A DNA stretch of 64,000 bases, taken from assembly GCF_900343125.1 (NCBI RefSeq), contig NZ_OPYL01000002.1, positions 372,001-436,000 of the forward strand. Direction: 5' to 3'. Of this stretch, positions 23,311 through 47,975 are shown piece after piece (within the stretch, counting starts at the first letter, position 1; every line of letters starts with the position of its first letter). Both the position numbers and the translations under genes were made by a program. Origin of the DNA: Dysgonomonas sp. Marseille-P4361 (GTDB lineage Bacteria > Bacteroidota > Bacteroidia > Bacteroidales > Dysgonomonadaceae). The notes below the pieces were generated by a model. It saw nothing but the letters and a program-made list of their open reading frames with translations. It was not told the origin of the DNA and did no database searches.

Positions 23311-24303
23311 TTATTGCTTTTGCTCGTAATTATCAAAGTCTTCAGATTTTACAGTCATATATGTGCTGTCGCTTGTTCCTAATATTAAAAGGTAGGATAA
23401 ACCTTTTTTCTTGGCTATGGTTCTCGCTGTAGCTGTGTCTGTAAGCATGAAGGCTGTAGCATAAGCGTCTGCTGTCATGCAGTCATCGGCAATGATCGTA
23501 GCACTTAGTATATTTGATTCGGAAGGGTATCCTGTATTAGGGTTTATTGTATGAGCAAATCTTTTTCCGTCCCGCGTGTAATATTTTCTGTAATTGCCCG
23601 ACGTAGCAAGTGATTTATCACATAACTTTATTATTGTCTGTAAATGTTCGTAATCAAAAATATCTTTATCTACAGGCTGTGTGATACCTATTTGCCAACA
23701 TTTTCCTTTTGCGTTCAAGCCTTTCGTTCTTATTTCTCCACCTATGTCAACCATGTAGTTGTTAATGCCATAAGATTCTAAAAGTTGAGCAATGACATCA
23801 GTGGAGTAGCCTTTTGCTATAGCTGAGGTATTTATTTGAATTTCGGGTCTATCTTTTATTATTTTATTATCTTCTAATCTTATTTTTTGAAAGCCTACAA
23901 ATTGCTTTAGGCTGTCTATCATTTCAGGAGATACATTATCTATGTTTTTAAACCCAAATCCCCAGGCATTGATCAAAGGGGATACTGTTATATCAAACAT
24001 CCCATCTGTGTCCATAGATACTTCCTTTGACTTGTTAAATACATTAATGAAAAAGCTATCCAGTTTTGCAGATTCATTATTATTTACTTTCGATATGATG
24101 CTTGTCGTCTTGAAAGGGTTTAAGGAATTGTCGAATAATGCAAGCTTTTCAGTTATTTCCTCATCAAGAGAATGTGTATGCTTATATTTTACTGAATATG
24201 TAGTGTGAAAGATGCTTCCTCTTGTCTCAAAATAGCTTTCTTTTTTCTCTTTACAGCTAGTTGCGATCATGAATACAATTAAAAATATATAGATATATCT
24301 CAT
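23311..24303 (-). CDS. apbE: FAD:protein FMN transferase, lipoprotein
   Basis: ApbE flavinyltransferase links FMN covalently to a threonine of target proteins such as RnfG/NqrC. I use ATG 24303, giving MRYIYIFLIVFMIATSCKEKK, a lipoprotein signal with its Cys in ATSC; a longer in-frame start at 24345 lacks this. Motifs include INAWGFGF, LDNSAIAKGYSTDVIAQLL (here NTSAIAKGYS), YMVDIGGEIRTKG and the Asp-containing DDCMTADAYATAFMLT segment that binds Mg and FAD. About 330 residues, complete. No flavinylated partner is visible nearby, but the gene is divergent from the cytochrome cluster. Confidence 0.92.
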   Translation of the reverse strand: MRYIYIFLIVFMIATSCKEKKESYFETRGSIFHTTYSVKYKHTHSLDEEITEKLALFDNSLNPFKTTSIISKVNNNESAKLDSFFINVFNKSKEVSMDTDGMFDITVSPLINAWGFGFKNIDNVSPEMIDSLKQFVGFQKIRLEDNKIIKDRPEIQINTSAIAKGYSTDVIAQLLESYGINNYMVDIGGEIRTKGLNAKGKCWQIGITQPVDKDIFDYEHLQTIIKLCDKSLATSGNYRKYYTRDGKRFAHTINPNTGYPSESNILSATIIADDCMTADAYATAFMLTDTATARTIAKKKGLSYLLILGTSDSTYMTVKSEDFDNYEQKQ

Positions 24304-24393
24304 AGAATAAATTATAGTAATAAAATATGCTTTTTTAAATATCAAATATTGAGTAAGTTAGTCGAAAATGATTGTATTTGAAATATTATATTG

Positions 24394-24550: not shown

Positions 24551-26110
24551 ATGACGATCGAAAGCCATAGAAACAAAAAAAAGAATTTTTTTAAGCGTAA
24601 ATCATTTTATTTACTTCTCGGTTTAGTTTTTGGTATCATTCTCATGATATCAGTGTATCAAACATCAGTGTACTTTTCTACAGATGAGTCTTGTATGATG
24701 TGTCATGTGCATCCTCATGCGGAAGAAAGTTGGAAACTCTCCAAGCACATGGATAATGGCAGTGGAACCAAAGTCCATTGTGTCGATTGTCACTTACCCC
24801 CCAAAAATCAAACTTGGGATCATTATACGGCGAAGGCTAAGCTTGGTATTCGTGATGTTTGGGGATACCTAACTAAAGATAGTGCTGATTTTGACTGGGA
24901 TAGAATGTCTGAATTAGACTATGCCGTAACATATATTCCTAATGCATCGTGTAAAGAATGTCATTATAATTTATTTCCTGATGGAGTGACAGATGATGCT
25001 GTAACAGCTCACTTATACTACGAAGAGAATGAAGAAAAACTAGATCTACAATGTATCAGTTGCCACTTAGATGCAGGACACTATAATCCAAATTACCAAC
25101 ATGGAACATTGGCTGCTGCTCCTACTTCTAAAAATGCTGTTGATACAAGTGCTTATTTCAAAACAGCAACAGAAGTAACTGCTTTTGAAAACTATGTGGA
25201 ACAAATTCCAGGAACACCAGTTTCGTTCAATATGGTTGCTGTACCTGGAGGTACTTTCAAAATGGGTAGCGATGAAAAAGAATCTTTCCGCAAAGAAGAT
25301 GAAAGCCCTATGAGAAATGTAACACTTAGTCCATTCTTTATGGCAGAAATTGAAGTAACTTGGGATATGTATTGGTCTTTCTATGAAGAAACAATGAGTG
25401 AAGGTCGTACCCCTCCTGAAAAGGTGTATGCTAACAATAGTAACCCAGATGTAGATGCGGTTTCTGGACCTACACCTCCGTTTGGATTCCCTGACCAAGG
25501 CTGGGGAGGCGGAGATCGTCCGGCTATTACAATGACTCACTATGCCGCAGAAACGTTCTGTCAGTGGTTATCTAAAAAAACAGGTAAAAAATATCGTCTA
25601 CCAACCGAAGCTGAATGGGAATATGCTGCTAGAGGTGGTACAGAGACACCATATTTCTTTGAGGGAGATCCTAAAGATTTTTCAGATCAAGGTTTTTGGC
25701 GTAAATTCTTTGATGCGGATGTAGATCCTATTTCAGGATTCGTTATTTATGGTAAAAACAGTAAGAACAGATCACAAGAACCTTCACTTGTTAAAGCCAA
25801 TCCTTTCGGACTTAAAAATATGTTAGGAAACGTTATGGAATATTGTGCAGATAAATATGACCCTCAAGCATACTCAAAAGGAGGTGATAACGTAACGAAT
25901 CCTCTTAATACCGAAGGCGAAGAGTGGGTTGTTCGTGGAGGAAACTATACATCTGATGCTGCAGATTTAAGATGTGCAGCCAGAGATTATACAAAACACG
26001 ATGCATGGCTGAAAACAGACCCTCAGCAGCCTAAAAGTATTTGGTGGTATTCTGATATAAAAGGTATTGGTTTCCGCGTTGTATGCGACACAAATGGATT
26101 AGTTAAATAA
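24551..26110 (+). CDS. NapC/NirT-type tetraheme cytochrome c fused to an FGE/SUMF1-like domain
   Basis: A 519-residue two-part protein. Residues about 19-41 are a membrane anchor. The periplasmic part carries four CxxCH haem sites: CMMCH (48-52), CVDCH (77-81), CKECH (134-138) and CISCH (168-172), the pattern of NrfH/NapC quinol-oxidising cytochromes. From about residue 228 to the end it is an FGE-sulfatase (SUMF1) fold: MVAVPGGTFKMGSDE, RLPTEAEWEYAARGG, GNVMEYCAD, VVRGGNY and GIGFRVVCD. The Cys pair of true formylglycine-generating enzymes, expected just before RCAAR, is absent (TSDAADLRCAAR), so this domain is probably a binding or scaffold module, not a sulfatase activator. No NrfA partner lies nearby. 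First gene of the cluster; a quinone-to-periplasm or periplasm-to-quinone electron link is inferred. Confidence 0.85.
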   Translation: MTIESHRNKKKNFFKRKSFYLLLGLVFGIILMISVYQTSVYFSTDESCMMCHVHPHAEESWKLSKHMDNGSGTKVHCVDCHLPPKNQTWDHYTAKAKLGIRDVWGYLTKDSADFDWDRMSELDYAVTYIPNASCKECHYNLFPDGVTDDAVTAHLYYEENEEKLDLQCISCHLDAGHYNPNYQHGTLAAAPTSKNAVDTSAYFKTATEVTAFENYVEQIPGTPVSFNMVAVPGGTFKMGSDEKESFRKEDESPMRNVTLSPFFMAEIEVTWDMYWSFYEETMSEGRTPPEKVYANNSNPDVDAVSGPTPPFGFPDQGWGGGDRPAITMTHYAAETFCQWLSKKTGKKYRLPTEAEWEYAARGGTETPYFFEGDPKDFSDQGFWRKFFDADVDPISGFVIYGKNSKNRSQEPSLVKANPFGLKNMLGNVMEYCADKYDPQAYSKGGDNVTNPLNTEGEEWVVRGGNYTSDAADLRCAARDYTKHDAWLKTDPQQPKSIWWYSDIKGIGFRVVCDTNGLVK

Positions 26111-26137
26111 TAAATATAAAATCTTAAATACACAGTC

Positions 26138-27514
26138 ATGAAAAAAGAAAACAGTATTAGTAGAAGATCATTCTTAAAAAGCTCAGCTCTTGTAGGAGTT
26201 GCAGGTACATTAGGTACAACTGGTGGAGTTGCAATGTTGACTTCATGTGGTGGCAGTGATAGTTCAGATACTGCTGTAAAACCATTAAAAGCAGCAGGAA
26301 CTTATTATGTTCCTGAATTGATGGATATAGCAAAAGATGGTCAAGAACTTAAAGCTGGAGTTATTGGTTGCGGTGGACGTGGTTCTGGTGCAGCTTTTGA
26401 CTTCTTAGCGGCTGCTAATGGTGTTACAGTTGTAGCACTTGCTGATACTTTTAAAGAGAGAGTAGATGGTTTAGCAAATCAATTAAAAGAAAAGAAAGGT
26501 ATAGATATTCCGGAAGATAAACGCTTTGTAGGTCTTGATGCTTACAAACAAGTTATCGATTCAGATATTGATGTTGTGATTATAGCAACACCGCCAGTAT
26601 TCCGTCCTTTACACTTTAAATATGCAACAGAAAAAGGGAAACACTCATTCTTGGAAAAACCAATTTGTGTAGATGCTGTCGGCTATCGTACAATCATGGC
26701 TGCTTCGAAACAAGCTGCAGCTAAAAATCTATGTGTAGTTACAGGAACACAACGTCATCATGAACATAGATATGTGCAAGCATATCAGCAGATTATGAAT
26801 GGTCTTATTGGGGAAATTACAGGAGGAACTGTATATTGGAATCAGGGAATGCTTTGGTATAAAGAACGTCAATCAGGATGGTCTGATGCTGAGTGGATGA
26901 TTAAGGACTGGGTAAATTGGAAATGGTTATCAGGAGATCATATTGTTGAACAACATGTACATAATATAGATGTATTTACATGGTTCAGTGGTCTTAAACC
27001 AGTTAAAGCTACAGGATTTGGATCTCGTCAACGTCGTATAACTGGAGACCAATACGATAATTTTAGTATTGACTTTACTATGGAAAATGGCATTCATCTA
27101 CATAGCATGTCTCGTCAAATTGATGGTTGTGCTAATAATGTAAGTGAATTTGTACAAGGGACTAAAGGCTCTTGGGATAGTGCAACTAATGAAATTAAAG
27201 ATCTAGCTGGAAATGTTGTTTGGAAATATGATAAAGAAGCTACAGAAGCTCAATTTAAACAAATGAATCCTTATGTACTAGAACATGTTAACTTAGTAAA
27301 TCATATCCGTGCTAAGAAACCAATTGATCAGGCTTCTGAAACAGCAGTATCTAATATGGCTGCAATCATGGGACGCGAATCAGCATATACAGGGGCTGAG
27401 ATTACTTGGGAGCAAATGACAGCATCTCCTCAAGATTATACTCCTGCTGATTTGAACTTAGGTAAAATGGATATGAGTACATTTACAGTTCCTGTTCCTG
27501 GATCTGGTAAATAA
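26138..27514 (+). CDS. Tat-exported Gfo/Idh/MocA-family oxidoreductase, lipoprotein
   Basis: NAD(P)-dependent sugar or inositol dehydrogenase family. The N-terminus has a twin-arginine motif (SRRSFLKSS, residues 8-16) and a lipobox ending in LTSC, so the folded protein should be exported with its cofactor and anchored by lipid. The Rossmann motif GVIGCGGRGSG is near residue 72, the EKP motif (FLEKPICVDAVG) near 172, and the C-terminal alpha/beta domain has HNIDVFTWFSG and the QRRITGDQYD.FS segment. 458 residues, complete. It follows the cytochrome fusion by 27 bases and precedes a TIM-barrel gene by 12. By analogy with periplasmic glucose-fructose oxidoreductase it may keep its nucleotide bound; the substrate is unknown. 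Confidence 0.88.
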   Translation: MKKENSISRRSFLKSSALVGVAGTLGTTGGVAMLTSCGGSDSSDTAVKPLKAAGTYYVPELMDIAKDGQELKAGVIGCGGRGSGAAFDFLAAANGVTVVALADTFKERVDGLANQLKEKKGIDIPEDKRFVGLDAYKQVIDSDIDVVIIATPPVFRPLHFKYATEKGKHSFLEKPICVDAVGYRTIMAASKQAAAKNLCVVTGTQRHHEHRYVQAYQQIMNGLIGEITGGTVYWNQGMLWYKERQSGWSDAEWMIKDWVNWKWLSGDHIVEQHVHNIDVFTWFSGLKPVKATGFGSRQRRITGDQYDNFSIDFTMENGIHLHSMSRQIDGCANNVSEFVQGTKGSWDSATNEIKDLAGNVVWKYDKEATEAQFKQMNPYVLEHVNLVNHIRAKKPIDQASETAVSNMAAIMGRESAYTGAEITWEQMTASPQDYTPADLNLGKMDMSTFTVPVPGSGK

Positions 27515-27526
27515 TTGAATAGAATT

Positions 27527-28453
27527 ATGACATTAGATAGAAGAAATTTTTTGAAATCGTCAGTATCTGGAGCCGCTTTAGTAGCACTAAGCGGCACAGC
27601 TATTTCTGCATGTGCAGCGCCTGCTTCTAAAGAGGAAAAACCAATAAATACAACTGAATTAAAACTTTCTTTTCAAGAAGGAATTGCTCCGGGAGAAACG
27701 TTGAACGAAAAGTTCGACTACATGGAGAAATTAGGCATTGTTGGTTTTGAACCTTGGGGTGGAGGTCTTGCTGGTCGTGTTGCTGAGATAAAAGAAGCTT
27801 TAAGTGGACGCAATATCAAAGTAAGTGCTATTTGCGCTGGTTTTAAAGGTTTTATTTTATCAACAGACCCTGCAGTGAGAAAGGAATGTATGGATACAAT
27901 GAAGGAGATTATAGCTGCTGCAGGAGAATTAGAATCCACAGGAGTTATTATTGTTCCGGCATTTAATCAACAAGTTCCGGTTATGCCTCACACTCAAGAA
28001 ACACGAGATTTCTTGTGTGAGCAATTTAACGAAATGGGAAATTTCGCTAAAGAGCATGGTACAACTGTAATCTTTGAACCTCTAAACAGAAAAGAAGCAT
28101 TTTATCTACGTCAGGTAGGAGATGCAGCTTCAATCTGTCGCGATATTAACAATCCGGGTGTTCGTTGTATGGGAGACTTCTGGCATATGACATTCGAAGA
28201 AAATTCAGATATGGGAGCTTTCTTGTCTGCAGGAGAATATCTACAGCACGTGCATGTGGCTAGCCGCAAACGTCGTAGTATGCCAGGTGAAGACGGAGAT
28301 GCAGATAATTACATCGAAGGATTTAAAGCTCTGAAAATGCTAAATTACGATAAGTATGTTAGCTACGAATGTGGATGTAAAGGCGATAGAGCTGTCGTTG
28401 TACCTGAATCTGTAAAATTATTGCGTGATCAGTGGGAAAAGGCTGTATTGTAA
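27527..28453 (+). CDS. Tat-exported TIM-barrel sugar isomerase/epimerase-like protein
   Basis: AP-endonuclease-2-like TIM barrel, the family of hydroxypyruvate isomerase and of the isomerases that pair with Gfo/Idh/MocA dehydrogenases. The start is ATG 27527, because the upstream TTG abuts the previous stop codon. The N-terminus is MTLDRRNFLKSS (Tat) followed by a lipobox (AISAC). Metal-ligand candidates are the Glu in VIFEPLNRKEAFYL, Asp/His in CMGDFWHM, His in LQHVHVA and Glu in YVSYECGC, in the usual order along the barrel. About 308 residues, complete. Followed directly by a terminator. Confidence 0.85.
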   Translation: MTLDRRNFLKSSVSGAALVALSGTAISACAAPASKEEKPINTTELKLSFQEGIAPGETLNEKFDYMEKLGIVGFEPWGGGLAGRVAEIKEALSGRNIKVSAICAGFKGFILSTDPAVRKECMDTMKEIIAAAGELESTGVIIVPAFNQQVPVMPHTQETRDFLCEQFNEMGNFAKEHGTTVIFEPLNRKEAFYLRQVGDAASICRDINNPGVRCMGDFWHMTFEENSDMGAFLSAGEYLQHVHVASRKRRSMPGEDGDADNYIEGFKALKMLNYDKYVSYECGCKGDRAVVVPESVKLLRDQWEKAVL

Positions 28454-28481
28454 ATACAATCTTAAAATATAATATGTAAGT

Positions 28482-28524
28482 AAATAAGTGAAGAGATATT
28501 TTATATCCTTCACTTTTTTACTTT
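28482..28524 (+). terminator. Terminator after the first TIM-barrel gene, nested with the next promoter
   Basis: AAGTGAAG-GATAT pairs with ATATC-CTTCACTT around a TTT loop (one bulged A), followed by a T-run at 28515-28519. The T-run flows straight into the -7 box of the ccsA promoter. Confidence 0.8.
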
Positions 28525-28526
28525 TG
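28519..28526 (+). promoter_or_regulatory. -7 promoter box of the ResB-CcsA gene
   Basis: TACTTTTG, exact consensus, immediately after the terminator hairpin and 25 bases before ATG 28551. It shows that the second half of the cluster has its own promoter. Confidence 0.55.
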
Positions 28527-28550
28527 TATAAAACATTTTATAATAGAATA

Positions 28551-30890
28551 ATGAAATTGAAAAACTTTCTAGTTGGTATTTTGTATTCATACAAGGCTTC
28601 GATTATAATGATGCTTCTGTATGCACTCTTTATGGCTATTGCCACTTTTGTAGAGAAATACACAAGTACAGAAACTGCAAAAATATGGATATACTATTCT
28701 CCATTATTTATTTTATTGCAATTGCTTCTAGTACTGAACTTTATTTTTTCTTCATTAAAAAATAAATTATTCAAAAAGAAGAAGTGGGGTGGGATAGTAG
28801 TCCATTTCTCATTGATAATAATCTTAATAGGAGCTTTTATTACCCACGTTTCGGGTGTAGAGGGTACTATTCATATCAGAGAAGGAGAATCGGTTAGCCA
28901 TATGGTTGTGCAGACAAATAAAGGAATGCATAAATTTAATTTGCCATTTAGTATTAAGCTGGATAAGTTTACTTTAACCAGATATCCGGGTTCATCAAGT
29001 CCCTCTTCGTATGAAAGTCTCTTAACACTTCATACTGAAGGACGTTTTGAGCAAAAAGTAATATCTATGAATAACGTTTTAGATATAAAAGGTTACCGAT
29101 TATTTCAGGCATCATATGACACAGATGAGAAGGGAACAATTTTGTCTGTAAATAGAGATGTGTTGGGTAGGACTATCACATATGCCGGGTATGCTTTATT
29201 AATAGTAGGTTTCTTGCTTTCGTTCGTTGTTCATAACTCTCGATTTAGATACTTAATAGCTCGTTTGAAAGAAATTAAGGCTCAAAAATCATTATTGATA
29301 TTATTATTATGTTTTTCTATCCCTCTATCTTCATTAATAGGGCAGAATGCAGAGAATCATATTGTTGAAGCTTTGCAGAAAAATAGAGTGGACAAAGAGC
29401 ATGCTGCCAAGTTTGGAGCTTTACCCATGCAGGCTACTGATGGAAGGATAGAGCCTATTAATACATTCTCGTCCGAAGTATTAAGGAAGTTGCATAGTTC
29501 TGATAAGTTTGGAGACTTAAATTCAGATCAATTTTTATTAAGCGTATTGACATTCCCTGAAATGTGGATGCATATACCTTTAATTTCCTATAAGAATGAT
29601 GATATAGCCTTCAATTATGACATTTCGGAAAAAATGTGCGCTTATACAGAACTCTTTGATTCGAATGGAAATTATAAGCTGCATGAAGATTTGGATAAGG
29701 TATTTGCAAAGCCTATATCTGAACGAACGAAGTTTGATAAAGATCTGATAAAACTCGATGAACAAATAAATATTCTGCATCAACTTCTAGGACGTAAAAT
29801 GGTTAAGATTTTCCCTAACGAATTAGATAAAAATCATAGCTGGTTTGCTTATGGGGATAATTTATCTACATTTTCCAGTTTAGACTCCTCTTTCGTGAAA
29901 CAAAATGTTGAACACTACCTCCAAAGTGTAAAAGAAGGTGTTCGTACTGATAACTGGGCTGATGCAGATAAAATTTTAGAGGAAATAAAGTCATTCCAAT
30001 TAGAAAAGAATAAAACGGTTGAGGTCTCTTCTGATAAAATAGATGCAGAACTGCTGTACAATGAGTTAAATATAAATAGATTTTGTAAGAAAGTGTATTT
30101 AATATTAGGAGGTGTACTGTTGTTATTGGCCTTTATAAATATTCTTAAAAAAAGAAAATCGATTAATATAGCATTTAATATCTTACTCGTTTTTGTTGTT
30201 CTAGGGGTATTATATCACCTCTTTGGTATGGCAATGAGATGGTATATAGCAGGCTATGCTCCATGGAGTAATTCGTACGAGACAATGATCTACGTTTCCG
30301 CAATAACAGTTATAGCCGGACTGGTCTTTGCAAGACAGAGTCAACTCACAGTTGCTCTTGCTACGTTGTTTGCTGGGGTTATTTTATTCGTATCCGGATT
30401 AAACTGGATGAATCCTCAGATAAGTCCTTTAGTTCCGGTATTGAAGTCGCCTTGGCTTATGATTCATGTTGCTGTAATAGTAGCAGCCTATGGTTTTTTC
30501 GGAATTAGTTTTCTTCTGGGAACAACTAACTTAGTCTTATTACGTATAAATAAAAATAAGAAAAATATTATGCTCAAAAGTAGAATAGAAGAACTTTGTA
30601 TAATAAATGAAATGTCTTTGTGGGCAGGACTGGCTTTGATGACTATTGGTACATTTCTAGGTGCAATATGGGCGAATGAATCTTGGGGACGCTATTGGGG
30701 ATGGGATCCAAAAGAAACTTGGGCATTAGTTACAGTAGTAGTATATGCTATCGTAACTCATGTGCGTCTGGTGAAGAAGTGGGATAATCCATATTTGTTT
30801 AATTTATTATCGGTCATCGCTTTTGCTTGTGTTTTGATGACATATTTCGGAGTAAATTATTATCTTAGTGGGATGCATTCGTATGGATAA
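28551..30890 (+). CDS. ccsA: Fused ResB-CcsA cytochrome c assembly protein (system II)
   Basis: Haem export and ligation protein that attaches haem to CxxCH sites on the outer face of the inner membrane. About 779 residues from ATG 28551 (MKLKNFLVGILYSYKAS); an in-frame start further up lies inside the terminator hairpin. The N-terminal third is ResB-like: membrane helices with a periplasmic IHIREGESV loop. A second signal-like helix follows (ILLLCFSIPLSSLIGQ), then a large periplasmic domain. The C-terminal part is CcsA: several helices and the tryptophan-rich haem-binding WWD-type motif (GRYWGWDPKETWALV). It sits inside the cluster that encodes the tetraheme cytochrome, so it probably matures that protein. 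Confidence 0.9.
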   Translation: MKLKNFLVGILYSYKASIIMMLLYALFMAIATFVEKYTSTETAKIWIYYSPLFILLQLLLVLNFIFSSLKNKLFKKKKWGGIVVHFSLIIILIGAFITHVSGVEGTIHIREGESVSHMVVQTNKGMHKFNLPFSIKLDKFTLTRYPGSSSPSSYESLLTLHTEGRFEQKVISMNNVLDIKGYRLFQASYDTDEKGTILSVNRDVLGRTITYAGYALLIVGFLLSFVVHNSRFRYLIARLKEIKAQKSLLILLLCFSIPLSSLIGQNAENHIVEALQKNRVDKEHAAKFGALPMQATDGRIEPINTFSSEVLRKLHSSDKFGDLNSDQFLLSVLTFPEMWMHIPLISYKNDDIAFNYDISEKMCAYTELFDSNGNYKLHEDLDKVFAKPISERTKFDKDLIKLDEQINILHQLLGRKMVKIFPNELDKNHSWFAYGDNLSTFSSLDSSFVKQNVEHYLQSVKEGVRTDNWADADKILEEIKSFQLEKNKTVEVSSDKIDAELLYNELNINRFCKKVYLILGGVLLLLAFINILKKRKSINIAFNILLVFVVLGVLYHLFGMAMRWYIAGYAPWSNSYETMIYVSAITVIAGLVFARQSQLTVALATLFAGVILFVSGLNWMNPQISPLVPVLKSPWLMIHVAVIVAAYGFFGISFLLGTTNLVLLRINKNKKNIMLKSRIEELCIINEMSLWAGLALMTIGTFLGAIWANESWGRYWGWDPKETWALVTVVVYAIVTHVRLVKKWDNPYLFNLLSVIAFACVLMTYFGVNYYLSGMHSYG

Positions 30891-30949
30891 AAAATATGCC
30901 CTTTTATCCAATCATATACTAGGTTCAAATAACTATAATTTAATATATC

Positions 30950-32314
30950 ATGAAAAAAAATGGAAAATTAGATCGTCGGAGTTTCTTTAAGCATTCAGCT
31001 GTTGGAACCCTAGGCGCAATCTCAGTCCCTTCTATCCTGACAAGTTGTTCAGGTGGAAGTAGTGACCAAGATAGCAAAACGAAAATTAAAGCAGATGTTC
31101 CCGAAATCTTAGCAAAGGCACCTGATGGACAGCCTTTGAAGGCCGGCTTAGTCGGATGTGGTGGCCGAGGTACAGGAGCGGCAATCAATTTTATTGATTC
31201 AGGTGATGGTTTAGAAATTGTTGCAATAGGTGATGTTTTCCAAGATAAATTAGATAGTTGTAGAAAAACGTTAAGTGAAAAAGGACAAAATATTCCTGAT
31301 GATAAATGCTTCCTAGGTTTTGATGCATATCAGAAAGTAATAGATGCCGGAGTAGATATAGTCTTATTATGTACCCCTCCAGTATTTAGACCTATGCATT
31401 TCGAATATGCAATTGAGAAAGGGAAACATTGTTTTATTGAAAAACCTTGTGCTGTTGATGCAGTAGGAGCAAGAAAAATATTGGCAGCAGGAAAGAGAGC
31501 AACCCAAAGAGGTCTGTCTGTAATAAGCGGGACAATCAGACGCTCACAAAAAGACTGTATCGAAACTTATCGTCGTGTAGCAGAAGGTGCTATTGGCGAT
31601 ATTGTTTCTGCTCATGTAACTCGTTTCGGCAGTTCTCTGTGGCATATTCAGCGGAAACCGGGATGGACTGATATGGAGTATATGCTGCGAAATTGGGTGA
31701 ATTTCTGTTGGACTTCGGGTGATCTTGTAACAGAACAGTTTGTACACGAAATAGACATGATGTCGTGGTTTATGGGAAGTAATAAGCCTGTAAGCGCCGA
31801 AGCAACCGGAGGACGCCAACGTCGCGTAACAGGAGATATGTATGACTTCTTTAGTATCGAGTATGTTTATGAAAATGGAGTTAGAGCACATTGTACATCG
31901 CGTCAGATAGATGGTTGCGATAATCGTCACACTGTTTTTGTTTATGGAACAAAAGGATATACAAACTGTTTCGATACAATATTTAACTTAGATGGATCGA
32001 TTGCATGGCAATATCCACATCCGAAACCGGAAGATGCCGATCAATCTATGGCTGTTCCTGATCCATTCAGACAAGAACATGTACGCTTAGTCACAGCAAT
32101 AAGAACTAAGAAACCCGTGAATGATACAGAGCAGCATGTGCAATCAACCTTGATGGCTATCATGGGAAGAGAGTCTGCTTATACCGGGAAATTTGTGACT
32201 TGGGATCAGATAATGGCATCTGATATGAAATTAGGACCAGATACTTATGAATTTGGACCTGTGCCAGGAATATTAGAAGAAATACCAGTAGCTGGATCAG
32301 CTCCAAAAATTTAA
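30950..32314 (+). CDS. Second Tat-exported Gfo/Idh/MocA-family oxidoreductase, lipoprotein
   Basis: Paralogue of the oxidoreductase at 26138. The 454 residues show the same plan: Tat motif DRRSFFKHS (residues 8-16), lipobox ILTSC, Rossmann GLVGCGGRGTG near residue 66, EKP motif FIEKPCAVDAVG near 163, VHEIDMMSWFMG and RQRRVTGDMYD.FS. Divergence within the shared framework suggests a different substrate or a heteromeric partner. It starts 59 bases after ccsA with no promoter I can see between, and runs to the next isomerase-like gene with a 12-base gap. Confidence 0.88.
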   Translation: MKKNGKLDRRSFFKHSAVGTLGAISVPSILTSCSGGSSDQDSKTKIKADVPEILAKAPDGQPLKAGLVGCGGRGTGAAINFIDSGDGLEIVAIGDVFQDKLDSCRKTLSEKGQNIPDDKCFLGFDAYQKVIDAGVDIVLLCTPPVFRPMHFEYAIEKGKHCFIEKPCAVDAVGARKILAAGKRATQRGLSVISGTIRRSQKDCIETYRRVAEGAIGDIVSAHVTRFGSSLWHIQRKPGWTDMEYMLRNWVNFCWTSGDLVTEQFVHEIDMMSWFMGSNKPVSAEATGGRQRRVTGDMYDFFSIEYVYENGVRAHCTSRQIDGCDNRHTVFVYGTKGYTNCFDTIFNLDGSIAWQYPHPKPEDADQSMAVPDPFRQEHVRLVTAIRTKKPVNDTEQHVQSTLMAIMGRESAYTGKFVTWDQIMASDMKLGPDTYEFGPVPGILEEIPVAGSAPKI

Positions 32315-32326
32315 ACCTTTTAATTT

Positions 32327-33241
32327 ATGGAACGTCGAAGCTTTCTGAAGAAAACGGTTGTGGGAGTAGGAATGTTATCCCTTATGGATACAGAAATCCT
32401 TACAGCAAGCGATGCATTGAGAAGTCCTAAAAGTTCGGTTTCATCGAACTTTAAGAAATCAATAATGTGGGAAACGATAGGATTTGAAGGTTCAATTCTG
32501 GATAAATGTAAAGCGGTAAAAGCTGCAGGCTATGATGGAATAGAACCAAGTAGTCATATGAATAGGGAAGAGGTGATAGATGCTATGAAATCTACAGGGT
32601 TGATTGCCTCTAGCGTATGTTGTTCTACCCATTGGGCTAAGCCTCTTTCTCACCCCGATGCTTCTGTTCGTCAAGAGGGAATTGAAGGCGCTATTGTAGC
32701 AATGGAAGATGCTAAGATGTATGGAACAGATTCAATATTGTTAGTGCCGGGAACAGTTGGTGATGATGTCTCTTATGACGAATGTTGGGATCGTTCAAAA
32801 GAAAGCATAAAAAAACTATTGCCTATAGCAAAGAAGTTGAATGTAACTATTTGTATAGAAAATGTTTGGAACAATTTTTTACTTAGTCCTATAGAAGCAT
32901 GTAACTATGTTGACCAATTTAAGAGTAAGAATGTAAAATTTTACTTCGATTGTGGAAACATATTGGTTTATGGGTGGCCTGAGCAATGGATCAAAATTTT
33001 GGGAAAAAGAATAGGGCGTATTCATATCAAAGAGTTTAGCAAAAAAGTCGCAGATTCTTCAGGTAGATGGAAAGGCTTTGGAGTCAAACTAACTGAAGGT
33101 GATGTTAACTGGTCAAAGGTGATGAATGAAATTAGAAAAGTCTATCCACATACTTGGTTAACCACCGAGCAGGGAAACGGTCCTACTCTTGAGGACTTGA
33201 AAGACCTAAGCTCGCGCTTTGATAAAATATTGCAGATGTAA
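32327..33241 (+). CDS. Second Tat-exported TIM-barrel sugar isomerase/epimerase-like protein
   Basis: A 304-residue AP-endonuclease-2-like barrel with a Tat signal at the very start (MERRSFLKKTVVGVG); unlike the other three it has no lipobox, so it should be soluble in the periplasm. Metal-ligand candidates: Glu in TICIENVWNNFLL, Asp in FYFDCGNIL, His in GRIHIKEF and Glu in WLTTEQGNG. It is the last gene of the cluster; a terminator follows 28 bases later. It pairs with the preceding dehydrogenase just as the first TIM barrel pairs with the first dehydrogenase. Confidence 0.85.
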   Translation: MERRSFLKKTVVGVGMLSLMDTEILTASDALRSPKSSVSSNFKKSIMWETIGFEGSILDKCKAVKAAGYDGIEPSSHMNREEVIDAMKSTGLIASSVCCSTHWAKPLSHPDASVRQEGIEGAIVAMEDAKMYGTDSILLVPGTVGDDVSYDECWDRSKESIKKLLPIAKKLNVTICIENVWNNFLLSPIEACNYVDQFKSKNVKFYFDCGNILVYGWPEQWIKILGKRIGRIHIKEFSKKVADSSGRWKGFGVKLTEGDVNWSKVMNEIRKVYPHTWLTTEQGNGPTLEDLKDLSSRFDKILQM

Positions 33242-33268: not shown

Positions 33269-33306
33269 CATTGACGGATCTTTGTAGGTTCGTCAATGTT
33301 CTTTTA
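33269..33306 (+). terminator. Terminator at the end of the sugar-oxidoreductase cluster
   Basis: CATTGACG pairs with CGTCAATG around a 14-base loop, followed by TTCTTTTAT. Confidence 0.75.
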
Positions 33307-36212: not shown

Positions 36213-37258
36213 CTAGGCATAAATATTTGTCAATCTAAATAGAAAGTATGGTATATAATTGACTCCTCTCAGTGTTGCTCTAAAAGCTTTTATTTTAGCA
36301 TTAAATGATTCTGCCGAGGCATTGGTGGAACGATTGTCGAAGTAATTAAGTATGGTTTGATAACGTGCAGCTATGCTTCTTTTAACTGTACCAAAGGTTT
36401 TAAAGCCTGATTGCTCTACCGATTCATACCATCTGGCTAGTCTCGTCAATGCCACCATTTTGTCTTTTGTGTGTTCATAAATCCCTTTGAGCTGCATCGT
36501 TAATTTATAAGCTATTTCTAAGTCGGGATAATACTTGAATAAAACACTAGCTCTGAATCTTTGACTTGGAGTCCATTTATTCTCGGTTTTAAACAATAAA
36601 TATCTACTTCTAGCTAATAATTGTTTATGAGTATCACCATTTTCTAATAGAATAGGTTTGTAGCTCTTTCTCAATTCCTTGGCTAACTCTATTTCTGTAT
36701 TTTCAAGGTCTATAGCCTGCCAGCGATGAGCAATACGCATATCTTGCAAAGCTTCAACAGCTAGCTTTTGTACGTGAAACCTATCGGTTACCAGAATGGC
36801 TTTAGGAAAACAACTCTTGGCTATCAGCTCCATATTGGGAGCCATATCCAAGGTGATTTCTTTGACTTTCTTGCGTTTGGAAAGGTTAATCTTGGATAAG
36901 TGTTCGATAACTGTATCTGCTGCAGTACCTTTGATGATAGCCACAAGAGCTCCTTTTCTTCCCTTAGCGGACTTATTGGTAACAATCGTATAAAGTTCAT
37001 CATATCTCAAAGAAGTCTCATCAATACTTAAATGAGATCCGACATTTTCAGGGAAAACTAAATAAGTATCAGCATGCTCACGCTCTGTCCATTCATGAAA
37101 GTTGGATAAGTGGCAACGGTACCATTCCTCCAATCGTTTACCATTCAGGTGGAAGAACTTGCCTAAAGTAGAACTATTTATAGGCTCGCTGTCAAGATAA
37201 TGCTTTTAAAAAAGCGGCAAACTCACGAGTCAAATGAGTGCCTGATGCTACTAAGCCT
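36213..37258 (-). mobile_element. ISAon1/ISL3-like insertion sequence remnant
   Basis: The main frame (36213-37133, extendable upstream to about 37190) encodes a DDE transposase of the ISL3/ISAon1 group: LSIDETSLRYDELYTIVTNK, ITLDMAPNM, VTDRFHVQKLAVEAL and NASAESFNAKIKAFRA give the acidic residues in order. In front of it, in another frame, is only the tail of the small N-terminal protein (about 20 codons ending KALS at about 37204), joined to the transposase by an overlap next to T/A runs where frameshifting is usual in this group. The rest of that protein is missing: the IS is cut off where the FGGY kinase gene ends. The element is therefore immobile. Confidence 0.75.
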
Positions 37259-38570
37259 TAAAACAAGACATTCCGACCATACATAGCATCGCCGCACCTT
37301 TACAGGCCAGTTCTCCTGATTCAGGCAATAAAAAAGTCCGGTTGAGCATGTCGGCTTTAATTTGTAACCACAACCGGCTACGGGCTCCCCCTCCGGAAGG
37401 AATTATTGCCCGTGTGTGGCTCCTGTCTAAATAATTAATCAACTCACCCAAACTTAAGGAAGTCGATTCAAGGATCGCCCTTACAAAATGCGCATGCATA
37501 TGGTCGCCATTTATCCCTGTAAAACCTTTTAACCCCTCATATTCATTTGCAGAAGGTTTTGCAACCACTCCCTCACATCCTGGCGGCACCTTCTCGGCCA
37601 TTGCAAGTAGTGCAGGAACTGACAATTCGGGAGCGTAGTTCGATCGATACCAGTCCAAAGCCGTTGCCCCATTTGAAGCGAATGCCATTTGAAAATAGTG
37701 GCTATCGTCTAATCCTCGCGCAATATTCACACCAGCCCGGGGTTTGTACTCGTTTTGACAATTTACGCAAGCCAACACAGTCCCTGTGGACTCACTGATA
37801 TTCCCCGAATAGGGAATGCCGGCGCCAATAGCCACCATATGATGGTCTAATCCACCTGAGAATATCAGAGCGCCGGCAGATAAACCTATCAGCCGGGTTC
37901 CTCTTTCAGAGAGATTTCCCATCTGAATCCCTACATTAAAAAGAGTCGATAATTGCTTTTCATCAATATGAAAAGTATCCAGAGCATCCCGCCACCATTG
38001 CCCTTCCTGTACATTCAGCAACCCCGTCATAGAAGAGGTACTCATGTCACTTATACGATTGCCGGTGAGAATAAATACCAAATAATCCGATATCGACATT
38101 ATATGCCGCACCTTTTTCCAGACATGAGGTTGCTGACTTTGAAACCAGTTGACTTTAGCGATAAGGGAATGCCGGCCAGGAGAGATACCTAGTCCTGTCT
38201 TATATAAGAAGTCCTCCCCCAACAGGAATTCCTTTAATCGGACAGATTCACCCACAACCCGTTCATCACTCCATAAAATCAGTGATGTTAAAGGATTATC
38301 GAACTCATCCAGTAAAATAAAACTATTGGCTTGTGAAGAATAAGACAAAGCCCTTATTTGCTTTGGCGATATATCTGCTTCTTTTATGGCCTTCCGAATA
38401 GAAAGATTTAATGTTTTCCAGAAAACCTCCACATCCAACTCACAAATATTTCCGCCAGCAGTATTCTTTTTCACAGGATATCTTCCTAAACCGAATAATT
38501 TTCCGGTCTCGTCAAATATACCCGCCTTGAAATACGTTGTACCTAAATCTATTCCCAGAAAGAAACTCAT
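37251..38570 (-). CDS. FGGY-family carbohydrate kinase, C-terminally truncated
   Basis: ATP-dependent sugar kinase of 439 residues; family members usually have about 490-520. The N-terminal domain (MSFFLGIDLGTTYFKAGIFDE; ILWSDERVV near 108) and the C-terminal ATP domain (ISESTGTVLA, IIPSGGGARSRLWLQIKAD, CKGAAML) are present. The final helices after CKGAAMLCMVG are lost: the frame runs into the fragment of an IS N-terminal gene and stops within it. Activity is doubtful. It overlaps the ceramidase-like gene by 4 bases (ATGA), so the pair was an operon. In a GalNAc/GlcNAc locus the substrate could be a released sugar; not determinable here. Confidence 0.85.
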   Translation of the reverse strand: MSFFLGIDLGTTYFKAGIFDETGKLFGLGRYPVKKNTAGGNICELDVEVFWKTLNLSIRKAIKEADISPKQIRALSYSSQANSFILLDEFDNPLTSLILWSDERVVGESVRLKEFLLGEDFLYKTGLGISPGRHSLIAKVNWFQSQQPHVWKKVRHIMSISDYLVFILTGNRISDMSTSSMTGLLNVQEGQWWRDALDTFHIDEKQLSTLFNVGIQMGNLSERGTRLIGLSAGALIFSGGLDHHMVAIGAGIPYSGNISESTGTVLACVNCQNEYKPRAGVNIARGLDDSHYFQMAFASNGATALDWYRSNYAPELSVPALLAMAEKVPPGCEGVVAKPSANEYEGLKGFTGINGDHMHAHFVRAILESTSLSLGELINYLDRSHTRAIIPSGGGARSRLWLQIKADMLNRTFLLPESGELACKGAAMLCMVGMSCFKA

Positions 38571-39895
38571 TTATCCAGTTGTGCAATTAGCTTTGTCGTT
38601 TCTTTTATCAATATTTCCCCGGACCTATAATCGAAAAAAGAATTCCCCGCTTCGTAGAAACCTTTATCCACAGCTTCCTCCGTAGTGATATACCCCTGTA
38701 ATTCTCCATTTGCATAAGTGATTAGCGCCATGTTTTTATGCAATTTCTTTAATTCAAGCGCATATTCCACAAAAATCTCTCCTGGCCAGGCTGCAAAATT
38801 CCAATCTCCAATCCTGATTATTTGTATCTCTGCCGGTAAACAATTCCTATAAGCCTCATCCAATAAATTCGAATGGGTCTTTTTGGCAAGAAACAACAAT
38901 TCTTCGGCCCCGAACCAATTCACTTCTGCCGTACGGATCTCTTTTGGGTTTACCGTAGAATTTTTTAATTCTTCAAATCTCCCTTTCACACTATTCCTAT
39001 GCTGTTCAGCCCATTCTATCGTGGGGAATTGTCGTTTTGGCAAATCGATATCAGCGTGTAGAATATAAATTCTTTGTTCCGACGAATAAATAATGTTTTC
39101 TTTTAGTTGCGATAAAACAGAATCAGACACAATCGTCCCGATTCGACAAGCTTCTTCAATCGTATTCTCACGGGTCACATGACGGGGACTTTGATTTCCT
39201 GCCGCTCCCGTAAAATAAATAACGGGGCACCCCTTCCCTAATAGATCTTGTTGGAGTTTTTCGCGCACATAGTATGGAAAATCACTACTGTATAGTGTAG
39301 AGTCTTCATGTAGTATTGTCGGATGCATACTGCATACCAACATGGATGCGATATATTCCTTATTTTCACTATTTCTGACAAGCATGGCAGGAACTTCCAT
39401 ATCTTTGGCACCAGAAGGATCATGCCGATTGCTTCCTACCCCCGTTGCATCTCCCGTTATAAATGCGATCTCAGCAGGGACAGCATTTTCCATTGCCTGG
39501 CAGGCAGCTCGGACTATCTCCTGTTCCATATACTTCAGGTATTTCTCATCTACTCTCGGGACGATTGGGTCATTTTCGCTAATCAAACATTCTACCGTCA
39601 CCTGACCCGAATGTGTATGGGTTGCCGCAATCATGATATTGGAAACAGGAATACCCTTTTGTTCAAAAACAGCCGTTCTAATTCGGGAAACAATATTTTT
39701 ATCAACATAAATAATATCATTTGATATAAACAACACTTTCTCTTTTCCGTCAGTCAGATATAAAGCAGAACTTAACAAGGGATCATGCACTCCGACACTC
39801 ACCCGTTCTACGAACGGATAACCGAAAAGAAAATGGGCATCTTGTGGCGTAATATCCACAGTGGCTGCCCCTGCTCTTAATTTGTCACCTATCAT
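38567..39895 (-). CDS. Neutral/alkaline ceramidase N-terminal-like hydrolase
   Basis: 442 residues, matching the N-terminal catalytic domain of neutral ceramidases: AGAATVDITPQDAHFLFGYP at the start, zinc-site ATHTHSG near residue 93, SMHPTILH near 190 and the YFTGAAGNQSPRH segment with the candidate nucleophile region. It lacks a signal peptide and the C-terminal Ig-like domain of true ceramidases. A cytoplasmic metal-dependent hydrolase acting on a sugar-derived amide or ester is at least as likely as ceramide hydrolysis. It is translationally coupled to the FGGY kinase gene. No consensus promoter box was found in the 250 bases upstream. Confidence 0.75.
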   Translation of the reverse strand: MIGDKLRAGAATVDITPQDAHFLFGYPFVERVSVGVHDPLLSSALYLTDGKEKVLFISNDIIYVDKNIVSRIRTAVFEQKGIPVSNIMIAATHTHSGQVTVECLISENDPIVPRVDEKYLKYMEQEIVRAACQAMENAVPAEIAFITGDATGVGSNRHDPSGAKDMEVPAMLVRNSENKEYIASMLVCSMHPTILHEDSTLYSSDFPYYVREKLQQDLLGKGCPVIYFTGAAGNQSPRHVTRENTIEEACRIGTIVSDSVLSQLKENIIYSSEQRIYILHADIDLPKRQFPTIEWAEQHRNSVKGRFEELKNSTVNPKEIRTAEVNWFGAEELLFLAKKTHSNLLDEAYRNCLPAEIQIIRIGDWNFAAWPGEIFVEYALELKKLHKNMALITYANGELQGYITTEEAVDKGFYEAGNSFFDYRSGEILIKETTKLIAQLDK

Positions 39896-40100
39896 GGGTC
39901 TTTTATTTATCTGTTATTTTATGGCATAACATACACATGACACTAATTTTATTAATGCCTTTAATTACACTCCAAAGTAAGTAATTACTATTCTCTTTGA
40001 GATGAAATATGCCGTATCACGACTGGCATTTTGCGCAATACAGGACAACCAATATGCCAAATAGAATCAAATAAGTTCTCAGGAAGTGATATCTTTCGCA

Positions 40101-40130
40101 AAAAATAACCCGAAGGAAATCCTCGGGTTC
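40101..40130 (-). terminator. Terminator after the NagB-like gene
   Basis: On the minus strand AACCCGA / TCGGGTT with a 9-base loop is followed by ATTTTTTG, 17 bases after the NagB-like stop. It separates the nag genes from the ceramidase-like/kinase pair. Confidence 0.75.
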
Positions 40131-40146
40131 ATAATCATATTTTATT

Positions 40147-41148
40147 CTAATATCCCTTTGACCAGTCCACTTCTATATTTTGTGCGATAGTCTCTGAAAC
40201 AAATACGTCCGTAGGTAATGTTTGCAAGATGGATTCGGGAACTAATGGTGTGACCGGACCATGCAACACAAGGCGGGAGATAAAACGTTGCCATGCAGTA
40301 GTGGTTCCATGTACCGTAATAGCATGTACATCCATGCGGTGCTTCGCTTTGATCACTTCTAAAGGGCCAATCGTAGCAGCTTTCGGAGGAACTGCAGCCA
40401 GATTACCACTCTTGCCGAAACAACCATGTAACGAATTTTGCGCAAGCGTGAAAGGACTTAACGTTACTATCCGAGCGCTCATATTCTTCCACTCCTCAAG
40501 CGTACCCTGAAATTCAGGAGCATCAGGTTCTATAAAAGCCAGATGTCCCGTCCATCCCGGGCCACTATAACAGATATCTGCTCCTCCAAGATCGTCTATC
40601 ATTTTCCCGTAATCTTTCAAATTCTTGTTCGTAAATCCGACAAAATGATCCTTGGGTGGTCTCAATTCTTCTTTTAGTTCATAATAGAAATACCTCATCA
40701 TGGCATTGGTGAAACTGAATTCCCATCCTTCAGGGGCTATATTTCCGTTCTCATCGGCATATTCATCCATGGCAAAAGCGTAAATATTCCGACAATCAAT
40801 ATTAGAAGCATTTATCAAACGAGCAACGTGCCTGTATATGGGTGCCGGATTGGGAAGGATCATCACAAGTCTATTCCCCGTTTCAGCCGCATGTTTAATC
40901 CTGCCGACCATATCTGTCAGCCAGATAAAATCCACATCGGCATCAGGCACTACTTTTATTATAAATTCAGGATTGGGGTGTTTCTCAATATCCTCCTTTT
41001 TTATATTTGCAACCCTGTCAATCTCGTCTTTATCCTTAAACGGCACCCATCCAGAGGGATTAAAATCAAATGGTCGATACTCAATAATCGAATGGTCAGG
41101 CTTGGTACTTTCTGTTTGTTTCATACGAAAATATTTAATTTGTTTCAT
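40147..41148 (-). CDS. Glucosamine-6-phosphate deaminase/isomerase-like protein (NagB family)
   Basis: A 333-residue member of the NagB/6-phosphogluconolactonase superfamily, longer than E. coli NagB (266) owing to a N-terminal extension of about 60 residues. The sugar-phosphate site is recognisable: RLVMILPNPAPIYRHVA, YAFAMDEYADENG (catalytic Asp/Glu pair) and ICYSGPGWTGHLAFIEP (the NagB GIGxDGHIAFNEP motif with changes). Within a nagA-containing locus it probably deaminates or isomerises an amino-sugar phosphate. The start is ambiguous: an in-frame 24-base tandem repeat duplicates the ATG, at 41148 and 41124. Upstream, an IS110 relic separates it from nagA, so it may have lost its promoter. 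Confidence 0.75.
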   Translation of the reverse strand: MKQIKYFRMKQTESTKPDHSIIEYRPFDFNPSGWVPFKDKDEIDRVANIKKEDIEKHPNPEFIIKVVPDADVDFIWLTDMVGRIKHAAETGNRLVMILPNPAPIYRHVARLINASNIDCRNIYAFAMDEYADENGNIAPEGWEFSFTNAMMRYFYYELKEELRPPKDHFVGFTNKNLKDYGKMIDDLGGADICYSGPGWTGHLAFIEPDAPEFQGTLEEWKNMSARIVTLSPFTLAQNSLHGCFGKSGNLAAVPPKAATIGPLEVIKAKHRMDVHAITVHGTTTAWQRFISRLVLHGPVTPLVPESILQTLPTDVFVSETIAQNIEVDWSKGY

Positions 41149-41169
41149 ACGAAAATATTTAATTTGTTT
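41115..41169. repeat. 24-base tandem repeat over the start of the NagB-like gene
   Basis: Two exact 24-base copies (41115-41138, 41139-41162) plus the first 7 bases of a third. Each full copy carries the ATG and its upstream context; the unit is 8 codons, so the frame is kept. Confidence 0.9.
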
Positions 41170-41452
41170 AATTACTAGCGTGTTGCATTCTTTCGCAACA
41201 CCCTTTTACTTCAGTTAAGACAAAATAAAAGATAGCACTCATCTTTTAGACAAATGCACTGGTTATCAGATGGGCAAAACAGACAAGAAGATTAAAATTT
41301 CATACACGTGCTCTAGGCGACAATCAGGGGTGCTTATCTGTTGATGTCAGTTTCATATTCGGCTTAGACGCCAAAATGCGTCGTACACTAGTAAAAAATC
41401 GACCTTTGGTTTATTGCTATCTGTTATGTTTGTATTATCATTTTGCAAACAC
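41170..41452. other. Non-coding stretch between the NagB-like gene and the IS110 relic
   Basis: No gene seen. Short imperfect inverted repeats occur (GTGTTGC...GCAACAC at about 41180-41202). Part of it is presumably the downstream end of the IS110 element, but such elements have no clear terminal repeats, so I cannot place the boundary. Confidence 0.4.
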
Positions 41453-42692
41453 TCAAGCTGGTGCAGCCTGCAGTTGAACATTGTAACCCATTCTCTCGAG
41501 TTCTTTTTTTAAATACTTCTTACGCTTATCCTGAATTTTGTCATTCAAGTAATCTTCTCCAAGTTCACGATAATGTACATCATCTTTCAATACATGATAA
41601 ACCGATTTGAGAATAGAATGTGCTACAGCTACTGCAGCTCGTTTTTTGCCTCTTCTGGCAGCTAAGCGATGATAACGTGCTTTGTAAAAGGTGCCTTTTG
41701 TACGGGTGGCTGCCCATGAAGCCTCCATTAATGTGGATTTGGCTTGCTTGTTTCCGTGTGTGGTTCTTCCACTTTTTTTTACCAGCACTCTCATTATTGC
41801 CAGGAGATACACCTACCCAACTACACAGTTGTTCTGATGTAGGAAAAACATCCATGTCTAGTCCTATTTCGGCTATCAAGTCTTCAACTGTTTTGGTGCC
41901 TAAACCGGGAATTTCTCGAAGTCGCTCCAGTGCGTTCTCATAAGGACTCAGTAAATTCTTAATCTTATTGTTAAGCTCTTGTACTGATACATCAATATGA
42001 TGGCTGTTGGCACGAATGGTTTGTAATAGATAAACGTGATGCTCGCTGACAATGCCGTTACAGGCTTCCCAAAGTTCCTCTTTGGTTGCTTCTAGTCTTT
42101 TGTGATACACGGCTTCAATGTCTTGCATTGTTACGGGTTTTCCTTCACAAAGCTTGTCGATTAGTTTGGTAGCGGTTACACCGCTTGTGCTACTAAGCAC
42201 ACTAGATAGCTTAACATTGCAGTCTTCAAGAATTCGAACTATTCGGTTCTTGTTGGAGGCTATGTCTTGAACTAGCTTCTTACGGTAGCGTGTCAAATCA
42301 CGTAATTCACGTTGTTCCTTAGGTGGAATATAACTAGGTCTGAGTAATCCTGCCAAAAGAAGCTTGCATAGCCATGCACTATCTTTTTTATCAGTTTTAT
42401 GCCCTGGTACGTTTTTAACGTGACGAGCATTAACAATTCAGACTTTCATTCCAGAGGGTTCCAATACGTGATAAACAGGCTTCCAATAAACACCTGTACT
42501 CTCCATAGCAATGTGCGTAATGCCATTGTCTAATAACCAGTCTTTTAATTCTGTCAAAGAACTCGTAAACGTTCCAAATTCTCGGGTCGAACGTTTAAGA
42601 CCTTCGCCATCAATGGTGGCGACTACAGTTTTCTTGTGTACATCTAAGCCGCAACCGCGACTTATAACTTGTTCAAATTGCACTGTTCCCAT
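41453..42692 (-). mobile_element. IS110-family transposase, pseudogene with a stop and a frameshift
   Basis: DEDD transposase in three pieces. 42438-42692 encodes the N-terminus with the first catalytic Asp (GCGLDVHKKTVVATID). An in-frame TGA at 42438-42440 stands where family members have Trp (MKV-stop-IVNARHVKNVPGHKTDKKD). 41580-42440 continues in frame through the coiled-coil region to the transposase-20 domain (IPGLGTKTVEDLIAEIG, WVGVSPGNNESAG). A run of 8 T at 41773-41780 then shifts the frame to 41453-41812, which ends the protein (KSGRTTHGNKQAKSTLMEA ... ARRGKKRAAVAVAHSIL). It is dead and splits the nag genes. Confidence 0.85.
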
Positions 42693-43994: not shown

Positions 43995-44001
43995 AATCAA
44001 T

Positions 44002-47960: not shown

Positions 47961-47975
47961 AATATTTATATATTA

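Follow-up and report, generated by a model that had tools for sequence, protein, structure and literature searches.

A conserved gene unit in Bacteroidales linking a tetrahaem cytochrome-FGE fusion protein to a predicted exported Gfo/Idh/MocA dehydrogenase

Exported enzymes of the Gfo/Idh/MocA family pose the question of how their nicotinamide is recycled in a compartment where one would not expect a soluble pool of NAD(H). A six-gene operon at 24551-33241 (+) of a 64,000-nucleotide stretch of Dysgonomonas sp. Marseille-P4361 DNA (contig NZ_OPYL01000002.1, positions 372,001 to 436,000; the window) couples such an enzyme to a tetrahaem cytochrome of the quinone-linked type, and allows the question to be put to the test in gut genera that can be cultured (Parabacteroides, Dysgonomonas). 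The genes, all read in one direction, encode a cytochrome fused to an FGE-like domain (CytFGE), a dehydrogenase (Gfo1), an isomerase-like TIM barrel (Iso1), a cytochrome c assembly protein (ResB-CcsA) and a second dehydrogenase and isomerase-like protein (Gfo2 and Iso2); open reading frames (ORFs) and Pfam domains confirm all six, as listed in a first-pass annotation of this DNA. The set suggests a coupling of respiration to the oxidation of sugars on the outer side of the inner membrane. Specifically, the chances appear evenly balanced that the operon specifies a periplasm-facing module, tethered to the inner membrane, that oxidises and epimerises sugars and exchanges the electrons with menaquinone by way of CytFGE.

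The conserved unit is CytFGE-Gfo1-Iso1. A pattern search of the genome collection yielded 363 stretches, 340 of which encode CytFGE relatives; the best 80, together with L135 and L174, constitute the 82 haem-fused loci referred to below. (Many of their contigs are short, with at least 6 kb of downstream DNA in 58 loci and at least 8 kb in 51; what this means operationally is that counts of neighbours are lower bounds.) Gfo1 is found in 75 of the 82, on the same strand and no more than 500 bases downstream in 74 and at 542 bases in L077, and Iso1 (at least 55% identity) in 70, at 60-83% identity where the ORF was compared. Dysgonomonas, Parabacteroides, Tannerella, Petrimonas and further relatives share the three-gene order, with identities of 60-84%, the top CytFGE identities among the best 80 loci (82-84%) being those of Dysgonomonas. 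The first-pass annotation had proposed a search for a conserved neighbourhood, and one exists: Gfo1 lies directly downstream of 54 of 61 CytFGE copies in the family. Its set of four sugar enzymes was nevertheless too wide, what is conserved being one dehydrogenase and one isomerase. A four-enzyme unit is ruled out by the absence of any Gfo2 or Iso2 orthologue from the 82 related loci (51 with at least 8 kb downstream), three weak matches to Gfo2 (25-26%) representing other Gfo types. Other neighbours, by best ORF label, are a cytoplasmic-type Gfo (35 of the 82 loci), GH2 beta-galactosidase (17), SusC (15), SusD (14) and 3-keto-disaccharide hydrolase (4). One relative has, at G742:C127:700-6987, three tandem Gfo1 copies (65-70% identity) with Iso1 about 1 kb later. 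An ApbE flavin transferase gene (23311-24345, -) that diverges from CytFGE was considered as a flavin link and left out, no target having been sought systematically; besides the window, five of the 80 loci (L006, L007, L008, L013, L022) have ApbE next to CytFGE, and the Parabacteroides and Tannerella loci among the 80 do not.

The unit also holds together when it is dispersed. Seven fused loci are without a visible Gfo1: L081, which is at a contig end, and six from metagenome-assembled genomes labelled Prevotellaceae (L032, L035, L036, L037, L048 and L049, with 1.0 to 10 kb of downstream DNA). Six of these seven genomes encode a Gfo1 orthologue at another place, five of the orthologues being 56-58% identical and one 74%; none was found in the genome of L032. 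The five genomes of the 56-58% group were fetched, and in each of them Iso1 follows Gfo1, once cut by the contig end. Because the partners are kept although gene order is broken, a functional tie is argued rather than hitch-hiking. Co-presence is close to complete: among 101 genomes of the family, CytFGE is found in 60, Gfo1 (at least 60% identity, pieces at contig edges counted) in 58 and Iso1 in 60. CytFGE and Gfo1 occur together in 57, are both absent from 40 and occur singly in 4 (Fisher 2e-23); the corresponding numbers for CytFGE and Iso1 are 55, 36 and 10. Within the window's genus (25 genomes) the same 7 hold all three genes and 18, some of them incomplete, hold none.

CytFGE is a single ORF that combines a Cytochrom_NNT domain (2e-23; 83.5 bits against a Pfam cut-off of 24.1) with an FGE-sulfatase domain (6e-39; 134.6 bits against 23.3); a helix at residues 16-41 is seen in its AlphaFold model. 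Its four CXXCH motifs are kept in 82 of 83 haem-fused rows, window included, and many other residues of the haem part are unchanged in the alignment of fused rows. The haem domain also matches the NrfH family model, at 63 bits, and CytFGE might on that account be taken for the NrfH-type subunit of a nitrite reductase or comparable respiratory enzyme that lies among sugar genes by chance. This is very improbable: 63 bits is far under the NCBIfam cut-off of 134.2, so that CytFGE is not an NrfH proper, there is no NrfA in its locus, and its co-presence with Gfo1 is near-complete. The sole nrfA of the window's genome (G000, 3.30 Mb) is on another contig (C6:213512-214798), beside an nrfH-like gene of its own. 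NrfA partnership was dropped as a candidate on the low NrfH score and the separate nrfA and nrfH, and CytFGE is probably not the partner of NrfA; service to NrfA only, which the first-pass annotation had named as one outcome that would count against it, is not what the genome indicates. The ResB and Cytochrom_C_asm domains share one ORF in the operon, and G000 has just one further Cytochrom_C_asm locus, about 3 kb downstream of nrfA (in a segment, C6:210095-215553, that reads nrfH-like gene, nrfA, second cytochrome c assembly gene). Thus, the locus has its own means of maturing CytFGE, whose haems ResB-CcsA would load.

The FGE-like domain is unlikely to generate formylglycine. Its strand that aligns with the FGE active site reads RGGNYTSDAADLRCAAR in the window, and no Cys or His is kept at 85% or above in both the haem-fused and the free (stand-alone) FGE rows. 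At the place of the FGE catalytic Cys, the alignment has S in 81 of 83 haem-fused rows and D in 26 of 38 free ones. Formylglycine-type catalysis by a Cys pair was rejected, no Cys attaining 85% in both groups. What is invariant instead is a segment, W...DPQxPxSxWW, for whose FGE subfamily no name was found: all 121 rows have D490, P491, Q492, P494, S496, W498, W499, G507 and R509, and 118 of them have W486. Among structures that have been solved, the FGE profile matches PvdO best (5hha, 7.5e-36), although a score of 91.7 bits against an NCBIfam cut-off of 500 leaves CytFGE outside the PvdO family. PvdO is thought to be a redox enzyme. If the FGE-like domain were one too, the fused tetrahaem part would be its electron acceptor or donor, fusion being the simplest way to supply an electron partner, and Gfo1 and Iso1 would produce or use up the sugar-linked substrate of that domain without ever touching the haems. 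We consider this quite unlikely; the lack of shared Cys or His and the variability at the active-site place speak against it, as does the unchanged segment, whose appearance is rather that of a surface for binding.

In a sample of 395 genomes of the phylum, the FGE subfamily is found (E <= 1e-30) in 44, at 45 places, of which 40 were fetched (left out: the window's own, G469, G619, G378 and G463). Stand-alone FGE proteins, mostly with a signal-like N-terminus, account for 38 of the 40 fetched loci and tetrahaem fusions for two, L174 and L135, the latter from another class (55-56% identity). A Gfo1-family gene adjoins FGE in 34 of the 40: in 30 by ORF and in four by tblastn (L154, L167, L168 and L169; a small opposite-strand ORF lies between FGE and Gfo in L167). 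No such gene adjoins in L137, L138, L141, L144 and L171, and L160 has a divergent Gfo2-like neighbour only; the genomes of L137, L138, L141 and L144 carry a Gfo1-family gene elsewhere, and none was found in G434, the genome of L160 and L171. In the whole sample, FGE is accompanied by a Gfo1-family gene in 42 genomes and occurs alone in 2, and Gfo occurs alone in 13 (Fisher 1.5e-42), with Gfo1-family presence taken from the search in 52 genomes and added by hand in three of the haem type (G000, G107, G600); without these three, the numbers are 39, 5 and 13 (Fisher 4e-37). To judge by these distributions, FGE with Gfo is the older core, to which the cytochrome was probably added later and once. 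Quick trees are compatible with one origin each for the haem-fused FGE and its Gfo1 (support of 100 and 90, respectively), L135 being the sister branch. The distances of FGE and Gfo correlate (0.97 for 102 pairs, 0.90 for 28 free and 0.68 for 72 fused), which is no proof of contact, because the correlation follows the shared tree. The pairing of FGE with a Tat-type Gfo (exported by twin-arginine translocation) offers a possible role for FGE-like proteins whose residues make formylglycine generation unlikely.

Some of the free loci have features of their own. In L145 and L149 a one-haem Tll0287-like protein is encoded directly upstream of free FGE and Gfo, possibly a second way of bringing haem to the pair. 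L137 and L138 have free FGE and a YceI-like protein near an approximately 780-residue protein with two CXXCH motifs and a single-CXXCH protein. In seven others (L143, L148, L151, L155, L157, L159 and L165) a cytoplasmic-type Gfo and an L075-type TIM barrel are directly upstream of FGE and the Tat-type Gfo, which suggests matched cytoplasmic and periplasmic Gfo/TIM-barrel pairs.

Gfo1 and Gfo2 have Rossmann and C-terminal Gfo/Idh/MocA domains above Pfam cut-offs. Neither belongs to the BT_2158 glycoside 3-dehydrogenase model (NF058561), scoring 29.9 and 23.4 bits, respectively, against a cut-off of 750. A twin-arginine motif can be read in each of the four sugar enzymes, as originally claimed; the Pfam TAT model is reached by Gfo1 only (24.8 bits against a cut-off of 22.7), with Iso1 below cut-off at 19.7 and no match for Gfo2 and Iso2. 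Three of the four have the lipobox ascribed to them (LTSC in Gfo1, ISAC in Iso1, LTSC in Gfo2) and Iso2 has none. Gfo1 is thus presumably exported by Tat, and its anchoring appears to vary with the form of its partner: the lipobox is present in 71 of 74 Gfo1 rows beside haem-fused FGE (the three misses being early start picks in L039 and L068 and a spacing case in L056) versus 0 of 28 beside free FGE, after six raw pattern matches were discounted on reading as the Rossmann GCGGRG. Gfo1 seems to have become membrane-bound when its FGE partner did.

The folds nearest to the Gfo1 part of the structure models are DgpA, NAD-dependent sulfoquinovosidases, levoglucosan dehydrogenase, inositol dehydrogenases and GFOR (a second fold comparison returned matches to the Gfo part alone, the FGE part being barely covered). 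Several of these enzymes work via C3 oxidation. The presence among them of GFOR and of NAD-dependent glycosidases speaks for a redox-neutral Gfo1, recycling bound NAD(H) in each turnover, with FGE as a docking protein and the tetrahaem part mainly as an anchor or as the electron supply of some other reductase; that cytochrome-free FGE is the commoner form in the phylum sample points the same way. We nonetheless regard this account as unlikely. Four CXXCH motifs and the many unchanged residues of the haem part exceed the needs of an anchor, and the window's operon includes a haem lyase. Nor, among the ORFs listed, does any other CXXCH ORF recur near CytFGE (four of 80 loci show one), although the neighbours are partly unannotated and a haem-free partner is still compatible with this count.

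The sugar chemistry can be narrowed further by way of Iso1. Iso1 and Iso2 have the AP_endonuc_2 TIM barrel (Pfam), and Iso1 is a close relative of 3kws (E 2.6e-158), a 'putative sugar isomerase' from Parabacteroides. The next solved relative is 6wn6, the 3-keto-D-glucoside 4-epimerase YcjR (E 1.9e-23), aligned over about 250 residues. E184, D217, H243 and E281 of Iso1, presumably the Glu/Asp/His/Glu metal ligands, align with matching residues of 6wn6 and are kept in at least 98% of 64 Iso1 rows. This similarity along the barrel, ligand positions included, makes Iso1 a candidate YcjR-type C4 epimerase. YcjR interconverts gulosides and glucosides, according to the title of a reference in PMC11543891. 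The 3-keto-disaccharide-hydrolase family has 13 domain matches in G000, some of them two per protein. The keto-sugar chemistry originally proposed for the locus is thereby narrowed: the match of Iso1 to YcjR, the fold of Gfo1 and the 13 hydrolase matches point towards 3-keto-glycosides.

How might the parts work together? Gfo1 would take up NAD(H) as it folds in the cytoplasm and, as its motifs suggest, would then cross the membrane by Tat and be held there by a lipid; its reaction would be the oxidation of one hydroxyl of a sugar or glycoside (C3 is the likeliest position), the reduction of the product, or both. Iso1 would act on the keto-sugar by inversion or isomerisation, the counterpart being the reaction of YcjR at C4. 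The FGE-like domain, an old partner of the dehydrogenase, would probably dock Gfo1 or its sugar. In Bacteroidales it would have become joined to a tetrahaem cytochrome of the NapC type, probably in a single event. The reducing equivalents of Gfo1 would then be exchanged with the menaquinone pool, most probably leaving the dehydrogenase by this route. The stronger proposal, that an NAD(H)-holding, Tat-exported Gfo passes electrons through an FGE adaptor and a tetrahaem cytochrome to or from menaquinone, that this is a new respiratory branch, and that, throughout Bacteroidota, exported Gfo enzymes have a dedicated partner in the FGE subfamily, is tentative and somewhat more doubtful than probable. 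If it is true, anaerobic Bacteroidales can carry out the oxidation or epimerisation of glycosides beyond the cytoplasm and need not balance redox inside each turnover.

Several observations weigh against a respiratory module of this kind. A Pfam scan recognised neither a flavin nor another hydride-to-one-electron relay among the six proteins, and direct transfer from NADH to haem would therefore be unusual. Modelled with AlphaFold as a single chain, CytFGE plus Gfo1 (987 residues, 45 rows) has a predicted template modelling score (pTM) of 0.52, with the domains not confidently placed; as a rough estimate, about 0.5 is what two unplaced domains give. FGE plus Gfo1 (784 residues, 38 rows) has a pTM of 0.69, suggestive only, there being no control complex, so that modelling lends a complex of the two weak support. 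CytFGE is apart from Gfo1 in the six Prevotellaceae-labelled loci, and ResB-CcsA is near CytFGE in only 10 of the 82 relatives (best ORF label). The lipobox contrast reflects probably one evolutionary change on the trees and amounts to a single observation. Thirteen of 55 genomes with the Gfo1 family are without detected FGE, Gfo paralogues such as Gfo2 have no FGE of their own, and most FGE-Gfo pairs of the phylum sample are without a fused cytochrome, which implies that Gfo can work without one.

The features of the operon are collected in Table 1. CytFGE and Gfo1 are separated by 27 bases, and Gfo1-Iso1 and Gfo2-Iso2 by exactly 12 each, the spacing originally noted for both pairs. A strong terminator stem separates Iso2 from a Dpp5-type peptidase gene (33424) and probably marks the end of the operon; sites of this type (stem plus T-rich tail) number 5 in the region, with 4.7 expected.

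Table 1. Genes and terminator of the CytFGE operon (positions in the window)
Feature	Position	Strand	Description	Basis
CytFGE	24551-26110	+	N-terminal membrane anchor, NapC/NrfH-like tetrahaem cytochrome c, FGE/SUMF1-like domain at residues ~222-515	Pfam
Gfo1	26138-27514	+	Gfo/Idh/MocA dehydrogenase, predicted Tat-exported lipoprotein; steady companion of CytFGE	Pfam
Iso1	27527-28453 (ATG; TTG at 27515 in the ORF list)	+	YcjR-like TIM-barrel epimerase/isomerase	Pfam
ResB-CcsA	28488-30890 (ATG at 28551 the likelier start)	+	Fused System II cytochrome c haem lyase	Pfam
Gfo2	30950-32314	+	Gfo1 paralogue (47% identity), added to the operon locally	
Iso2	32327-33241	+	Isomerase-like TIM barrel, twin-arginine motif, no lipobox; local addition	Pfam
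Intrinsic terminator	33269-33298	+	13-pair stem, then T-rich tail; -17 kcal/mol, z -6.5	

Elsewhere in the window, a second sugar locus (37251-52576, -) encodes a TonB receptor, SusD, a GH109-like Gfo enzyme, an MFS transporter, an amidohydrolase, a ceramidase-like protein and an FGGY kinase. An IS110-type transposase gene is inside this locus and an ISL3-type one (36213-37133) at its end. A segment at 55842-61508 (+), with a topoisomerase, a DUF3945/DUF4099 protein and an integrase-type protein, resembles a mobile element.

Several known systems resemble parts of the unit. CytFGE shares an N-terminal anchor and four c-type haem motifs with the NrfH/NapC quinol dehydrogenases, and differs from them in its additional C-terminal FGE-like domain and in having no NrfA at its locus. 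PvdO, the FGE-like periplasmic oxidoreductase of pyoverdine maturation and best solved match for the FGE part, has no fused haems and other partner genes. GFOR, which is exported by Tat, redox-neutral and soluble, has the Gfo fold in common with Gfo1; Gfo1, on the other hand, is predicted to be a lipoprotein, and its gene accompanies that of a cytochrome. LacABC of Caulobacter is linked to cytochrome c, and its LacA is a flavoprotein of the GMC type. It is a membrane-bound periplasmic lactose 3-dehydrogenase (PMC9007349) and, in oxidising sugars at position 3 in that setting, resembles the module proposed here. The differences are that Gfo1 is of the NAD-type Gfo family and that the cytochrome of CytFGE is NapC-like. 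YcjS, a Gfo enzyme, operates, like the other ycj enzymes of E. coli, in the cytoplasm. The likeness of YcjS-YcjR to Gfo1-Iso1 is the combination of a sugar dehydrogenase with a 3-keto-D-glucoside epimerase (PMC11543891), and the difference is that no haem or FGE partner is named for it in the excerpt of PMC11543891. The exported Gfo glycoside 3-dehydrogenase BT2158 of Bacteroides has already been described (PMC11300592), and the periplasmic pathway of its type (glycoside 3-dehydrogenase and 3-keto-disaccharide hydrolase) offers two likenesses: an exported Gfo/Idh/MocA enzyme with glycoside substrates beyond the inner membrane, and PF06439 hydrolase genes, which occur in G000 and near some CytFGE relatives. 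It differs in that Gfo1 is far below the cut-off of its family and that the word 'cytochrome' is absent from the main text of PMC11300592. Among open-licence PMC papers, no description was found of a tetrahaem-FGE fusion tied to Gfo enzymes. Thus, periplasmic sugar oxidation is known from these systems, and what would be new in the CytFGE unit is its wiring.

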